This document shows, piece after piece, positions 3,501 to 57,831 of a DNA stretch of 64,000 nt. Numbering within the stretch: position 1 is the first letter of the stretch; each line of letters opens with the position of its first letter. The stretch is taken from the NCBI GenBank assembly GCA_945897465.1, contig CAMDFK010000016.1, positions 1 to 64,000 of the forward strand. The letters are read 5' to 3'. A model generated the notes under the pieces. The model was given only the letters and a program-made list of their open reading frames with translations. It searched no databases and had not been told where the DNA came from. This stretch comes from Limnohabitans sp. Rim8 (lineage in GTDB: Bacteria > Pseudomonadota > Gammaproteobacteria > Burkholderiales > Burkholderiaceae_C). The translations under genes were made by a program, and so were the position numbers.

Positions 3501-4205
3501 GAGCGCCACCAGTTGCGCATCGCGCTCGGCCATCGCCTCACCAAAAACATGTGCCAGCGTGCCGGGGGCGGGGTCGGCCAGCGGCACTGCCATCAGGGCA
3601 CGCATGTCCTTGTCGAGTGCGGGTACGTCACGCCAGACACGTTGCAGCTGCGCCACCAACGGTGTGGCCATAGGGTAGAGCTGCTGACGCCAGTAGTCCT
3701 GCACAGCCTCCAGCCGCAGCGCAGCTTCGTCGCCGACCAGGTTTTCTTCAAACAGGCTGCCGCTGTCAAAGGCGTGCTCACGCAGCATGCGCTGGCACCA
3801 AGCGTCGATGGTGTAAACGGCCGCGTCGTCCATGGCCTGCGCGGCCAGCGCGAGCCGATACGCCGCTTGTTCGCGGGGCTCACCTTCGGGGTATTCGCTT
3901 TGGAGTTGACTCAGGAAGGCGTCGTCCGTTGGGGCGATGCCCCGGAACACCTGCGCCGCCTCGGTCAGGCGGGCGCGGATGCGGTCTGACAGCTCGCGGG
4001 TGGCGGCGCGGGTGAAGGTCATGACCAACACGTCTTGCGGCAACATGGGGCGCACGGGTGCGGTGCCCGCATCGCCATGGCCCAGCACCAAGCGTACGTA
4101 CAGCGCGGCAATCGTCCATGTCTTGCCCGTGCCTGCGCTCGCCTCGATCAGGTGGCTGCCGCGCAGCGGAAAGCTGTGGGCGTTGAGGGCGTGTGCGGTG
4201 CTCAT
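534..4205 (-). CDS. recB: RecBCD exonuclease subunit RecB (helicase-nuclease)
   Basis: A 1223-residue UvrD-family SF1A helicase with a C-terminal nuclease domain, the 3'-5' motor and only nuclease of RecBCD. Walker A is EASAGTGKTWT with Lys28. Motif II reads DEFQDTSP in the middle of the helicase core, and LLIGDPKQSIYGFRG and VLRTNFRS are motifs III/IV. ITIHASKGLEYPVV is the motif V region. Near the C-terminus YWVLDYKSNHLG carries the D-x-K nuclease motif. Length is close to E. coli RecB (1180). It overlaps recC by 4 bases upstream and recD by 4 bases downstream, so the three form one operon. Confidence 0.97.
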   Translation of the reverse strand: MSTAHALNAHSFPLRGSHLIEASAGTGKTWTIAALYVRLVLGHGDAGTAPVRPMLPQDVLVMTFTRAATRELSDRIRARLTEAAQVFRGIAPTDDAFLSQLQSEYPEGEPREQAAYRLALAAQAMDDAAVYTIDAWCQRMLREHAFDSGSLFEENLVGDEAALRLEAVQDYWRQQLYPMATPLVAQLQRVWRDVPALDKDMRALMAVPLADPAPGTLAHVFGEAMAERDAQLVALKQGWVEKADNLLCWIEGQLAVKKHGWNGSILQVGRSKKWMDALKGWSQSSGDANALKDAMVTGWDRLIPNGLLECRKEGDAVELPPESQAFADLQAALLALPEPAQAARLHARTHVLQRMAELKKRSGLFGFADMLQRLDVALADPESGERLAQRLREHFPVALIDEFQDTSPLQFRIFDRIYRTAENRQDAALLLIGDPKQSIYGFRGADIHGYLAARRATEGRHHVLRTNFRSTQAVVDVVNRWFQISDDAFGYQRGDEDPLPFQAVQAKGRSEVFTTRDGGVKAMTLVHDATLRSQRDALTHLSALCAEQIVAWLGDPQARFVDEEKGDKPLQPKDIAVLVRTGKEAAAVRDALRVRGVASVYLSDRDSVFASDEAQDLCLWLRGVAEPQNMRRVRAALGTRTVGLSLAELYELATQDELLDQRAEQMRDLRLVWQGQGVLAMLRQSLHVLQLAGRWRGQSDGERRLTNVLHLAELLQTASSQLDGEQALIRWLAQQIEEVKAGGAGDSEEQTVRLESDEDLVKVITIHASKGLEYPVVCLPFAHSHRMMEAHKTPVLQRYDGEGERHWTLDFDKDDTKLADHDRLREDLRLWYVALTRARHALWVGWSPVTRGSGKSCVNHNSAAGHLLGGGDAIDESGWWPKLQALETDAHAQRLSVQLVPASENVPLTVWQRPARTTELRDALVCTARIDKSWTIASFSRLTRDLSSQPLAHMSLHMATPRPADDEPPEDAQVLPAAAVATGTLAPWHSFAKGPTAGNFLHDQLEWLAADGFVLDAPKAERLKMRCENAGYKAQADVVVQWLTRVMAQPLRGPGSPLNALGTLLPEMEFWLPAERLHAREVDALCQQHLLPGVIRPQLPDAQLHGMLMGFADLVFEHEGRYWVLDYKSNHLGADEAAYTAQALDAAMAHHRYEVQAALYMLALHRLLRSRLGEAYNSARQLGGAVYLFLRGIDGPSGGCCTLPAPIELLDGLDAMLHAEVVS

Positions 4206-7200
4206 GCCTCGTCCCCCTCATCGTCTGCAGGCGCATCGGTCAAGGCCTCGACTTCGGCCTCTGCCGCCCAAGCTTTGAGCGGCTCATACACCGCCTGCGC
4301 CAGCCGATCCAGTGCGCCCGTGGCCAGCAAGTCTTGCACCATGGGGTAGGTGCGGGCCAGCGCCTGGTCTTTGTCTTTTTCTGCGCTCTTGAAGTCGCTG
4401 CCTTCGTAGGCATCGGCCAGTGCGTTGGTGTTTTCTTTGTCCTTGAGCCACTGCAAGGCCACGCCGGGCGGCAAGGGCAGCGGCCAGCGCATGCCCTCAG
4501 CCCAGGTGGCCAGCAAGGTCTGCAACTGGGTGCGGGCGGCCTCAGGGTCTTGCGGGGGCACACGCACCACGGCGTTGCGGCCCACCACCACACAGTGCAC
4601 TGAATGCCCCATGGCGGCCGCGGCCAGCGACTGCAGCCACATGTCGATGAGTTTTTCAGGCAATGCGGTGGCCGTGCCCGCTTTGGAAATGCTCACCAGC
4701 TTGTTGGCACGCAAACTCAAGAGCATTTGCCCGCCCTCACCCGCGAGCACACCGTCCAAAGCGTCTTGCAAACTCACTTGCGGGTGCATCTGCGGGTACG
4801 CTTGTTCGACCAGCACGCGCTCGGCCGCTTCGGGGTAAGCCCCGCGCTCGCGCAACGCAGCGGCCAGCTGGGTCTGCAGGATGTGGGTGAGCTTTTGGGC
4901 CTCGAGCGTGCCCACCCCCGCCAGCGGCAAGGCCCCAGCCTCACGCAAGTGCTGCACCACACGCGCTGCATGGCGGGGCAACTCGTCTGCGCTCAAATCC
5001 GCAGGCACATGCTGCAGTTCGTGGTCAAGCAACTGGTACAAGTCCAGCCCGCCCAAGCCAAACAGTTCTTCGTCATGCAGCTCGCTGCGCTCGTCTTCCA
5101 AATGCACCTGCAGCCGCTCACTGAAAAACGCACCCACAGGTTTGCGCAGGAAGCGGGCCAGTTGAGACAGGGTGATCACGGGCGGCTGGTCATTGGCGGA
5201 TTGCAGTGGAGGCAGCAGGCATGGATCGCCACGTCGCTGCGCTCCTCGCGATGACGACTCCCAAAAACCATCGTCGCATGACGCTTCAAACCTCTGCGCT
5301 CCCCGCGATGACGGTTTCAAAAAGCCATCGTCACATGGTTCTTGAAACTGCTGCGCGCCCCGCGATGACAAATTCAAAGGGCTATCGTTGCATTGGACGC
5401 GACTTCGCTGCTCGACTCGAGATAGCGCTTCAAACGTTCCGTCATCGCGAGCGCAGCGTGGCGATCCATCTTGAGCGGCTCGCCACTCTTTGGCATAGGT
5501 CATCAAACCACTGCCCGCCTCAAAGTAAGCACGGCTGAAGGGTTGGAGCGGATGCACCGTGGTCAGTACTTTGGCCGTGTCTTTGCCCCAGAGCAGGTCG
5601 ATCTCATCGCGCAGCTGCGACACCAGCACCGAGGGCGGTTGTTCGCTGTTGTCGCGCACGCTGCGGCCGCTCCAGCTCACGTAGAGCACCTGCCGCGCCG
5701 ACAAGAGCGCTTCGAGCATGAGCTGGCGGTCGTCGTCGCGGCGCGAGCGGTCGCCGGGGCGCGTCATGCCGGGCAGGCCCATCAGGTCAAAGTCGGCACG
5801 CGGGCTGCGGCGCGGGTAGTCGCCGTCGTTCATGCCCAGAAGGCACACCGCCTTGAACGGGATCGCCCGCATCGGCATGAGCGTGCAAAACGTCACACCC
5901 CCGGCCCGAAAGCGCTGCTCCAGCCGGGGTGCCTTCAAAGCTTCGAGCCAAGCCGATCGGGCCACGGCCAAGGGCACGTGCTCGGCAAAACCCGCTTCGC
6001 CGCAAGAGCGCACCCAGTCGTTCAGCGCTTGGTCGAGCGCTGCCAGGGCATTGCGGTCGTTGTCGTCACGCGGCTTGAACAGCGCCGCGAGCATGGCACG
6101 GCAACGCTCGGCCCACTGTGCGGGCGTGGCGCTTTGCGTGCAGGTCTGCCACCAGTCGATCAGGGCCTGCAGCAGGTGCGCGAGCGACCCGGCCAGCTCG
6201 GCGTCCAGCCCCCCCACTTCCGGGTAAGGCGACACGCCCAACGACACGCCATCGCCCACCGGGTCGGCACCGCAGGCATAACCCATGAGCATGCGCTGCA
6301 CGCCAAACAGCGCCGAGTTGTCTTCGCCGCACACGCCCAGCCCCAAGCCCGCACGGTGCTCGGCCGACAGGCCCCAGCGGATGCCCGAGCCCGCCATCCA
6401 ACGCGTGAGCGTGGGCAGGTGTTCGTCTTTCAAGCCAAAGCGGGCCGCGAGCGCGGGCACTTCGAGCAGCTCGACCAACTCGCTCATGCGGCTGCGCTGC
6501 TGCGGCAGGGCCAGCAACCACTCGACCGCATGGATCAACGGGCTGATGGCCTGTGCACCCAGGTCGGCAATGTCATACGGGATGAACCGCGCATCGCTGC
6601 GCTTGTATTGGCCAAACACGGCGCGGATCGCCGGGGCCATGACTTCGATGTCGGGCACCATGACCACCACGTCGCGCGGCGACAACGGCTCACCGGGCGG
6701 CGAGTGGAACCACTGCAGCAACTGGTCGTGCAGCACCTCGAGTTCGCGCACCGGGCTGTGCGCCACGCTGAACGTGACCGAGTGGTCGTCCTTGCGCAAA
6801 GGCTGGGCTGGGGTGCCACCGCTCGATGGCTCCAGGTCGCGGATGCGCCGCTGCAGCTGCGCGAGCAAACGCGTGCCGTCTTCGCCGGGCACATCGTCAA
6901 AAAAGTCCAGGCGCGGCCACTGCGTGACTTGCTGGGCCGCTTGCAGGTTGTCAAAGGCGTCGAGCTGGCGAATGAAGTCGCGCCCCTGCCGCCCCCAAGC
7001 GGCCAAGAGCGTGGGCGCATGCAAGTGCATCTGCGCCAGCGGCAAAGCGGCCAGCGACTCGCCCCGATAGTCGTGTCGACGCCGCTCGGCCTGCAGCCAT
7101 TCACGCCCATCGATGATGTCGCCCCAGTGGTACTGACAAGGGTTGGGCACGGCCAGCAACACCTGGCTGTGCGCGGCCAGTGCCGCCAGCATCTCCAGCA

Positions 7201-7930
7201 ACTGCCCCGGCATGTGGCTCATGCCAAACACCGACACGCGCCGCGCCACGGGGCTGGCCAGCGGCTGACCCGACTGCAGGTGCGCCATCGCCCGCGCATG
7301 CAGCGCCGGTCGGGTAGCCTGGCGTTGGCTGTCATCCAAAGTGGCGAGCACACGGCGCCAGAGTTCGGCCTGCCAAAGCTGGTCTTCGCCCAGCTCATCA
7401 TGCCCAGCGGCCTTGCGCAACACGTTCCGTCCGGCGGCCCAGTCTTGCAACCAGTCGGGTCGGTAAATTTGGTACTGGTCAAACAGGTCGGCCAGGCGGC
7501 TGGCCAATTGCAGCAGGCGGTCCGGCTCGTCGCCTCTCAAGAAACCCGCCACGGGTTGGAACACCGGGTCTGCCAAACACCCTGGCAGCAAGGCCATCAG
7601 CCGCCAGGTCATGGGCAGTTTGTCGAGCGGTGAGTCGGACGGCACATTGGCCGCACCCAGCACCTGCCGGTAGGTGCGCCACAAAAAGCGCGAAGGCAGC
7701 TCCACCCGCGTGGCGGCGCACACACCACCTTGGCGGGCCAGTTCGATCTTGATCCACTCGGCCATGCCGTTGCTCTGCACCAGCACCACTTCGCTCTCGA
7801 GCGGCAGCAAAGGGTGCGCTCGCAGCCAAGCCGTGAGGGTGTCCGCCAGCACCTCAGAGCGGTGGCTGTGCAGGGCGATGAAGCCGGGCGAAATGGAGGA
7901 TGCAGGCATGCGGTGAACAAGTGCGGACAT
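4202..7930 (-). CDS. recC: RecBCD exonuclease subunit RecC, with in-frame repeat insertion
   Basis: A 1242-residue RecC, the Chi-recognition scaffold of RecBCD. It begins MSALVHRMPASSISPGFIAL and has typical RecC blocks such as VVLVQSNGMAEWIK, RVSVFGMSHMPG and VCLLGMNDGDYPR. It is about 120 residues longer than E. coli RecC (1122). Most of the excess is residues 821-904, a low-complexity stretch of four degenerate 19-residue repeats rich in SSRGAQR and CDDG, encoded by a palindromic DNA repeat (5221-5469). The insert sits between the helicase-like part (ending MTYAKEWRAAQ) and the C-terminal nuclease-like part (resuming LPPLQSANDQPPVITLSQL). The frame is kept, so the gene is probably functional, but the protein consequence is untested. 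First gene of recC-recB-recD. Confidence 0.95.
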   Translation of the reverse strand: MSALVHRMPASSISPGFIALHSHRSEVLADTLTAWLRAHPLLPLESEVVLVQSNGMAEWIKIELARQGGVCAATRVELPSRFLWRTYRQVLGAANVPSDSPLDKLPMTWRLMALLPGCLADPVFQPVAGFLRGDEPDRLLQLASRLADLFDQYQIYRPDWLQDWAAGRNVLRKAAGHDELGEDQLWQAELWRRVLATLDDSQRQATRPALHARAMAHLQSGQPLASPVARRVSVFGMSHMPGQLLEMLAALAAHSQVLLAVPNPCQYHWGDIIDGREWLQAERRRHDYRGESLAALPLAQMHLHAPTLLAAWGRQGRDFIRQLDAFDNLQAAQQVTQWPRLDFFDDVPGEDGTRLLAQLQRRIRDLEPSSGGTPAQPLRKDDHSVTFSVAHSPVRELEVLHDQLLQWFHSPPGEPLSPRDVVVMVPDIEVMAPAIRAVFGQYKRSDARFIPYDIADLGAQAISPLIHAVEWLLALPQQRSRMSELVELLEVPALAARFGLKDEHLPTLTRWMAGSGIRWGLSAEHRAGLGLGVCGEDNSALFGVQRMLMGYACGADPVGDGVSLGVSPYPEVGGLDAELAGSLAHLLQALIDWWQTCTQSATPAQWAERCRAMLAALFKPRDDNDRNALAALDQALNDWVRSCGEAGFAEHVPLAVARSAWLEALKAPRLEQRFRAGGVTFCTLMPMRAIPFKAVCLLGMNDGDYPRRSPRADFDLMGLPGMTRPGDRSRRDDDRQLMLEALLSARQVLYVSWSGRSVRDNSEQPPSVLVSQLRDEIDLLWGKDTAKVLTTVHPLQPFSRAYFEAGSGLMTYAKEWRAAQDGSPRCARDDGTFEALSRVEQRSRVQCNDSPLNLSSRGAQQFQEPCDDGFLKPSSRGAQRFEASCDDGFWESSSRGAQRRGDPCLLPPLQSANDQPPVITLSQLARFLRKPVGAFFSERLQVHLEDERSELHDEELFGLGGLDLYQLLDHELQHVPADLSADELPRHAARVVQHLREAGALPLAGVGTLEAQKLTHILQTQLAAALRERGAYPEAAERVLVEQAYPQMHPQVSLQDALDGVLAGEGGQMLLSLRANKLVSISKAGTATALPEKLIDMWLQSLAAAAMGHSVHCVVVGRNAVVRVPPQDPEAARTQLQTLLATWAEGMRWPLPLPPGVALQWLKDKENTNALADAYEGSDFKSAEKDKDQALARTYPMVQDLLATGALDRLAQAVYEPLKAWAAEAEVEALTDAPADDEGDEA
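5221..5469. repeat. Palindromic repeat element with 57-bp tandem units inside recC
   Basis: The 249-bp block starts ATGGATCGCCACG and ends CGTGGCGATCCAT, inverted copies of one half-site that also contain GCGATGAC / GTCATCGC. Between them GCGATGAC recurs at 5248, 5305 and 5362, a 57-bp period, with a degenerate fourth unit around 5419. Because 57 and 249 are multiples of three and no stop occurs, the element is read through in recC as four 19-residue repeats. Similar half-sites occur at three intergenic places in this window (38001, 54573, 57692). Repeats of this general type (GTCATTGCGAGCGCAGCG) are known between genes in many bacteria; finding one inside a core repair gene is unusual. Confidence 0.9.
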
Positions 7931-8228
7931 GGAAGCGATGGGTCAAGAATAGCCGCAATCGTGACCGCCACCAGGCTCATGGCAAGAGCCCTGCACTGCC
8001 CAATTTTTAAGCACCAGCCGCCACACCAGACAAGATGCGGCTTGGCGCAGTTGTTCAAGGACTTATCCACATCTTTGAGCACGGGGTTTGGGGATACCCG
8101 CAAGCAACCCGGACCGGAGTCAAAAGTTTATCTGACCTAAAGCTAAGCAGCGGGTTGCGAGGACGTTGAGCGGGTTTATGCCGTCAACCGGCTTTGTACA
8201 AAGGAGTTTTTGGGATAAAAAGCCAAAA
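7931..8228. other. Intergenic region upstream of recC and vapBC; no gene seen
   Basis: This stretch lies upstream of recC (minus strand) and before the toxin-antitoxin pair (plus strand). No open frame with a recognisable product covers it. It should hold the recC promoter. One consensus DnaA box, TTATCCACA, is at 8063-8071, but it is solitary. TTTATCTGACCT at 8127-8138 resembles TTTAACCTGACCT at 9008-9020 on the far side of the vapBC pair. Confidence 0.5.
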
Positions 8229-38000: not shown

Positions 38001-38125
38001 TGGATCGCCTCGCTTCGCTCGCGATGACGGCGAGTCAACATCGCCCGACCATCGTCACTGCGAGCGAGGCATGGCAGTCCAAGAGGGCCAGCGATGGAGA
38101 TCAGCTTTTCCCTCGCGATGACCCC
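38001..38125. repeat. Palindromic repeat element upstream of the PAS-LuxR gene
   Basis: TGGATCGCCTCGC...GCGATGAC (38001-38028) is matched by an inverted copy GTCACTGCGAGC...GGCAGTCCA (38054-38081). A third half-site ending CTCGCGATGAC is at 38111-38121. The half-sites match those of the elements in recC and around gcvP. Unlike those, there is no internal tandem expansion. It ends 17 bases before the PAS-LuxR start. Confidence 0.85.
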
Positions 38126-54572: not shown

Positions 54573-54733
54573 GATTGCCGCGCTGCGCTCGCAATGACTC
54601 AGGCAAACAACAACGGTTACCGCGCTGCGCTCGCAATGATTCTGTCAAACAACAACGGTTACCGCGCTGCGCTCGCAATGACTGTGTCATGTTCATCAAA
54701 TTGAGCGTCATCGCGAGGCACGAAGCGATCCAT
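54573..54733. repeat. Palindromic repeat element with three 42-bp tandem units before gcvP
   Basis: GATTGCCGCGCTGCGCTCGC starts the block, and an inverted half-site GTCATCGCGAGG...CGATCCAT closes it (54707-54733). CCGCGCTGCGCTCGCAATGA repeats at 54578, 54620 and 54662, exactly 42 bases apart, with units nearly identical. The half-sites match those of the elements in recC, at 38001 and at 57692. The block lies inside the gcv operon and ends 23 bases before the gcvP start. Confidence 0.9.
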
Positions 54734-57691: not shown

Positions 57692-57831
57692 ATGGATCGC
57701 TTCGTGCCTCGCGATGACAAGTGGGTGTCGCGATGACAAGTGGGTGTAGCGATGTACGGTTGGTGCTACGGTGACCGGTTGGTGCTGCAATGACGCAAAC
57801 CCCGTCATTGCGAGCGCAGCGTGGCAATCCA
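57692..57831. repeat. Palindromic repeat element with 19-bp tandem units after gcvP
   Basis: It begins ATGGATCGCTTCGTGCCTCG, with GCGATGAC at its inner edge, and ends GTCATTGCGAGCGCAGCGTG then GCAATCCA. Between them a 19-base unit GCGATGACAAGTGGGTGTC is repeated four times with drift, plus a final GCAATGAC. Half-sites match those of the recC, 38001 and 54573 elements, but the tandem unit differs. Confidence 0.88.

Follow-up and report, generated by a model that had tools for sequence, protein, structure and literature searches.

A CGTC-tagged palindromic element translated within recC of Limnohabitans sp. Rim8, and REP-type palindromes at the same linker across the genus

The palindromic element in recC and its place in the protein

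The window, that is the whole stretch of 64,000 nucleotides from Limnohabitans sp. Rim8 analysed here, carries recC on its minus strand (4202-7930). The gene encodes a protein of 1242 aa, which matched TIGR01450 with 953 bits (cut-off 583). Within it, also on the minus strand, lies a CGTC-tagged palindromic element (5221-5469), which was recognised by its inverted repeats, its tandem units and the ORF and is read as RecC residues 821-904. The first-pass annotation had described a block of 249 bp with inverted ends at this place, and a terminal inverted repeat of 13 bp with 100% complementarity was indeed found (5221-5233/5457-5469), accompanied by an inner inverted pair of 12 bp within the block. 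The proposed addition to RecC in frame was confirmed as well, since the frame is open over the whole of recC. Two arms, both running from CGTC to CCA, make up the ends: a long arm of 35 nt (5222-5256, minus strand; 0 mismatches to a consensus derived from this same copy) and a short arm of 29 nt (5440-5468, plus strand; its consensus was likewise taken from this copy). Read along the coding strand, the short arm comes first and the long arm last. Using a repeat search, three 57-bp tandem units with 100, 77 and 61% identity were located at 5237-5407 (plus strand); four units had been claimed initially, but the fourth (5408-5464) is weak and visible by eye alone. TRF reported a period of 57 with 2.5 copies at 5235-5378. 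By eye, the units between the arms resemble repeats of the end of the long arm. Folded as RNA, the block reached a z of -5.06, with none of 200 shuffles equally good, and a comparison of window positions 4000-8200 with Rfam yielded no match above the gathering thresholds.

The CGTC tag starts both arms of the window copy and many copies elsewhere in the genome, where GTC, TGTC and CCTC-like variants were also observed. This CGTC-tagged type is termed type A throughout. The CCA tail ends both arms of the window copy and is unpaired in the fold of the short arm and partly paired in that of the long arm. The short arm was predicted to fold with 5 plus 3 bp, a bulge and a 3-nt loop (z +0.35), the long arm in a different manner (z +0.33). 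Neither type A monomer folds better than its shuffles, whereas the described CGTC REP monomer consists of a stem of 8-9 bp and a loop of 4-5 nt. Searching the window with a 19-base half-site and up to 3 mismatches gave six matches versus 0.10 expected. Two more short arms, at 38001-38029 (minus strand) and 57803-57831 (plus strand), lie outside coding-like ORFs according to our coding test. Half-sites of the type A family also occur in tandem at 54578-54689 (minus strand), with a 42-bp period and 3 half-site matches in the combined tandem-repeat and half-site search. In addition, 19-bp units with TCGCGATGAC cores are arrayed in tandem at 57709-57831 and adjoin a complete short arm.

In order to place the insert in the protein, E. 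coli RecC (1w36) was aligned. The alignment breaks off after residue 811 of the E. coli protein and picks up at 829; the gap spans 17 residues there versus 94 here. At 19 more distant RecC loci, mostly from other genera and a few from Burkholderiales or Proteobacteria bins, the linker measures 21-57 aa, and 21-30 aa in 17 of the 19. Modelling of the insert with AlphaFold (RecC 558-1242, 46 aligned sequences), as suggested in the first-pass annotation, gave pLDDT values below 50 and no secondary structure at 822-900, with block means of 31-37 over 828-897, values which a shallow alignment by itself could depress over an insert. The C-terminal domain mostly showed a pLDDT above 85. For the whole model the mean pLDDT was 73 and the pTM 0.57, and values below 50 were also found at 668-688, 708-718 and 947-958. 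When the PDB was searched for folds similar to the model, RecC chains from RecBCD entries came out on top, with TM-scores up to 0.37 (by the model's length); poor domain placement would be our guess for these low scores. Based on the low pLDDT, the lack of predicted secondary structure at 822-900 and the confident C-terminal domain, the insert is most likely a disordered spacer located where two domains join, the assignment of domains on both sides of the linker being presumed. The earlier reading as an in-frame palindromic insertion is supported, and the stretch it occupies is short in more distant RecC and predicted to be disordered.

REP types at the RecC linker of Limnohabitans

A total of 90 Limnohabitans genomes were searched, and 82 of them matched the C-terminal part of RecC. 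Linkers were read from part of the matching genomes via protein anchors and tblastn. Rows distinct in local sequence were counted as alleles, with rows lacking anchors or having short flanks omitted, which resulted in 50 alleles. Left out of this count were 11 diverged RecC loci (G021, G030, G015, G008, G006, G012, G001, G109, G034, G073 and G105) and the unreadable G031; about 19 more diverged genomes of the genus also stand outside it. In the 11 diverged, readable loci the linker is 18-34 aa long, and no REP peptide was visible in it. One further type A allele, G079, is likewise not part of the 50.

A recognisable REP-type palindrome was present at the recC linker in 29 of the 50 distinct alleles. 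Assigned by peptide patterns, 11 alleles belonged to type A, 11 to type B, 3 to type C, 3 to type D and 1 to type E, while 21 were untyped, among them L068 with a frame-broken type D. Type A is the CGTC-tagged type of the window; types B to E are four GTAG/GTGG-tagged types. A strain-specific insert, as considered at first, is not supported by these data, since the same type occupies the same junction in 11 of 50 alleles and a different REP type is present in a further 18. In the comparison of RecC sequences, the linker is short in more distant RecC, and several REP types occupy this place in Limnohabitans relatives.

Types A to E were all found in named isolates: type A in MMS-10A-192, Jir72, Rim28 and planktonicus II-D5, type B in Bal53 and 2KL-51, type C in G3-2, Hippo3 and T6-20, type D in radicicola JUR4 and 15K, and type E in DM1. 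The recC of L125, a record titled Akkermansia muciniphila, groups with Limnohabitans and probably stems from a mislabelled bin.

The linker DNA of types B, D and E combines a GTAG tag with a hairpin (fold computed for B and D) and inverted dimers. The GTAG tag is decayed in several type B copies and reads GTGG in L151 (type D). Compared to shuffles, the monomer consensus folds of type B (z -2.26) and type D (z -2.38) were better than most. Type C has a hairpin (z -3.14) and inverted dimers and behaves like a REP, but its tag is GTGG instead of GTAG, and it is classed as REP-like only. When an inverted repeat was required that no more than 1 of 100 mononucleotide shuffles equalled, 9/11 type A, 5/11 type B, 2/3 type C, 2/3 type D and 0/1 type E rows were retained, compared to 1 of 21 untyped rows and 0 of 19 distant loci. 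The inverted repeats are weak in many typed rows, indicating that many copies are partly decayed.

Copies outside recC and RAYT-like genes

In the window's genome, type A gave at least 50 BLAST matches, and many of 30 scanned loci contained inverted pairs of short and long arms. A census drawn from the best 40 of 89 candidates and their surroundings comprised 42 element groups. An element was called in-gene when no stop occurred across it, at least 30 codons stood on each side and the GC3 pattern agreed. Using this test, which may miss genes, 31 of the 42 groups failed and 11 were placed inside 8 conserved genes: recC, a UvrA-like gene (four groups), purL, uvrD, selO, a radical SAM gene, an ATP-grasp/alpha-E gene and a VTT/pyridine-nucleotide oxidoreductase gene. 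The impression that recC alone carries the element in frame did not survive this census. Similarly, the view that half-sites elsewhere are only intergenic applies to the two other full arms of the window, but not to the genome, where 7 other genes contain a further 10 element groups. Repair genes account for 3 of the 8 hit genes as a raw count, which looks high.

The UvrA-like gene (L179:703-7170, contig C14) encodes 2156 aa and contains four separate in-frame element groups. In the ATP-grasp/alpha-E gene the element lies between the two Pfam domains, and the radical SAM gene is a PF08497 member, which we take to be YgiQ-like. Mapped onto solved structures, the insert of purL corresponds to a point between chain positions 600 and 605 of 4r7g, that of uvrD to position 521 of 3lfu. 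For PurL, which matched in 84 genomes, the type A family was found in 3 of 30 fetched loci, while 23 have 9 residues at this place. For UvrD, which matched in 81 genomes, it was found at the same place in 4 of the 29 readable loci among 30 fetched. A different in-frame repeat of 35-49 residues replaces the 9 residues of the purL loop in L208, L213 and L223 (G067, G069 and G087); it contains QRSAFSVER or similar, and NAQRSTPNAQRPV or similar.

Among the groups that failed the test, the long ORFs over L180, L185 and L196 appear to run antisense. The element precedes the Pfam domains in L190 (PaaD-like) and L198 (iron ADH) and may for this reason lie upstream of the actual start. No in-gene case emerged from the coding test for six stretches taken from other genomes (L268-L273, 8 groups), and none of 14 pattern matches of the inserted peptide in viral contigs was confirmed.

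The other types differ in abundance between genomes. Type C gave at least 58 matches in T6-20 (G070), at least 52 in G072 and 2 in G014. In T6-20, 2 of 54 groups were in-gene (36 fetched stretches; best 40 of 166 candidates), namely those in recC and in a fused aconitase-type gene. In the latter (L302:1103-3205) a type C doublet is translated into a twice-repeated peptide between two Pfam domains. Type B was located at 6 places in G080 and solely in recC in G014, and a search of G025 found none. Y1_Tnp matches, 21 in total, were obtained in 12 of 12 genomes searched. In G072 an ORF of 154 aa with the motif PDHLH, RAYT-like by 25.1 bits versus a cut-off of 23, lies between type C copies. None of the tested repeat types was found near the eight other Y1_Tnp loci scanned of the 21, and no transposase linked to type A was found among the Y1_Tnp loci scanned.

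Probable survival at a permissive joint, its alternatives and known REP systems

From the element, its open frame, the family elsewhere in the genome, the short linker of distant RecC and the other REP families in sister species, we infer the following course of insertion, purging and survival. Several palindromic families would insert widely in Limnohabitans genomes, and insertions in most coding sequence would be purged. In-phase insertions at a long disordered joint would be nearly neutral and would survive, after which they would expand, decay or get replaced. No function of the inserted RecC peptide needs to be assumed. The block in recC is very probably a dimer of CGTC-tagged REP-type palindromes, the inner part of which has grown by tandem duplication, inserted in phase at a tolerant RecC linker and translated as a disordered spacer, its persistence reflecting survival at a permissive joint.

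The distribution of the linker types was compared with trees. At least 15 changes are needed on the RecC core tree (41 genus rows). Exchange of recC segments between species was rejected as the only explanation for the scattered types, as the flank trees (50 rows, hence a different row set) require 17-18 changes and thus not fewer than the core tree. In single cases, local exchange of recC linkers is likely, because L113/L114 and L120/L145 share near-identical linkers despite more diverged RecC cores. The type A element begins at an identical junction codon in all 11 carriers counted, in G079 one codon before it, and its downstream contexts, judged by eye, track the host clade. A constant junction is unexpected from random insertion, so that probably one insertion was spread by descent or exchange, or insertions were site-specific. 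For type A this means either a single entry followed by frequent loss or replacement, or short exchanges, or repeated use of the site.

A preferred insertion target, with site-specific integration by a mobilising enzyme beyond mere tolerance, would explain the single junction codon of type A as well as the finding that just two in-gene sites, recC being one of them, were seen in the census of 54 type C groups in G070. The UvrD and PurL loops, struck in several species, point in the same direction. We nevertheless regard targeting as unlikely. The type A insert of G079 is displaced by one codon, the offsets of types B to E differ slightly (by eye), type A occurs elsewhere in varied contexts (by eye), and shared ancestry or exchange accounts for a constant junction within a type.

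With respect to selection, the uncorrected, pooled pN/pS was 0.45 for the linker versus 0.14 for the adjacent core, as calculated from 20 pairs which share members and are not independent, with a stretch that includes some conserved flank measured as linker. Single pairs ranged from 0.09 to 1.37 for the linker, one further pair was without synonymous change, and in 2 of the 20 pairs the linker value was no higher than that of the core. The RecC linker is relaxed, not free of constraint. The type B hairpin covaries in recC (9 of 11 type B rows): 5 pairs were changed on both sides, and 0 of 500 shuffles showed as many, although related sequences can exceed shuffles without any structure. Simple decay predicts neither this covariation nor the fact that recC holds the only type B copy found in G014. 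Template switching would homogenise the arms of palindromes and in this way give covariation. The type B covariation may reflect either selection for the hairpin or template-switch correction of quasi-palindromes, the latter being favoured.

A benefit of the insert or hairpin, either by a longer RecC joint that tunes RecBCD or by a hairpin acting on recC mRNA or DNA, appears decidedly improbable to us. It would agree with the presence of such inserts in 29 of the alleles counted, with the covarying type B hairpin and with the share of repair genes among the hit genes, which matches a speculation of Di Nocera et al. (PMC3733652). On the other hand, sequence, length and family of the insert vary widely among species, no recognised element is present in 21 of 50 alleles (one being the frame-broken type D), and purL, the radical SAM gene and selO are hit as well. 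Homogenisation of the arms by template switching would equally yield covariation. Little credence is given to the more far-reaching proposal that at least four REP families were repeatedly captured at the interdomain joint of RecC, a docking site throughout the genus, and kept there since the change in length or hairpin alters RecBCD output. An assembly or frame error at a repeat can practically be dismissed: the recC contig of G022 ends near the linker and the metagenome bin G104 (L068) has a frame break, either genuine or due to faulty assembly, in a linker that is shorter by 49 nt compared to its type D relative, but in-frame inserts are carried by named isolates of types A to E and by genomes of 2 to 3 contigs, namely G033 (A), G080 (B) and G070 (C).

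Palindromic insertions within genes have precedents in other bacteria. Palindromic elements of Rickettsia (RPE) were reportedly described by Ogata and colleagues. Rickettsia are obligate intracellular bacteria, whereas Limnohabitans lives in freshwater. The RPE resemble the recC inserts as palindromic insertions in conserved genes; in contrast, several families share one site in the freshwater genus studied here, the RPE being compared by their description. The first-pass annotation had set the element apart from the RPE, and this contrast turned out to be weak: RPE-4 and RPE-6 are placed in the CGTC-tagged REP superfamily (PMC3733652), and the window element shares the CGTC tag and a CCA tail. 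RPE-1 is a longer palindromic insertion (PMC3733652).

CGTC and GTAG REPs have been defined and were found inside genes, with repair genes such as those of the excinuclease ABC (uvrABCD), UvrD and recBCD prominent (Di Nocera et al., 2013; PMC3733652). In-gene REP clusters encode 43 to 82 residues, and two Xanthomonas recB genes carry different REPs at about one site. Flexible linkers were suggested to tolerate REPs, and chance alone was doubted as explanation for the repair genes (PMC3733652). Since in-frame REPs in repair genes including recBCD were already described there, the recC insert belongs to a known kind; both are short tagged palindromes, often inverted dimers, inside genes that include many repair genes. 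The main text of that paper names recB, while recC and Comamonad- are absent from it; its Figure 7/7B and supplement may list recC. Different from the cases of Di Nocera et al. (PMC3733652), a single recC linker is occupied by several families throughout a genus. Types B, C and D share with REPIN/RAYT systems the tag-plus-hairpin repeats in inverted pairs, and the RAYT-like ORF between type C copies in G072 is reminiscent of a REPtron. Unlike in those systems, eight scanned Y1_Tnp loci were without adjacent tested repeats and none was linked to type A. A literature search, judged by titles and the beginnings of abstracts, gave no earlier account of palindromic Limnohabitans inserts or of REPs in recC. 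What seems to be new is that several REP families have repeatedly invaded a single recC linker throughout the genus, with a series of insert-free and insert-bearing alleles.

About 50 natural Limnohabitans recC alleles with and without inserts of several families at one joint, many of them from cultured strains, are thereby available, and this series makes the question of whether chance alone explains REPs in repair genes testable by allele swaps. If the joint were a genus-wide docking site, REPs would provide DNA repair with variation that is adaptive and turns over quickly. In this freshwater bacterium, repeats repeatedly supply new, probably disordered protein sequence.
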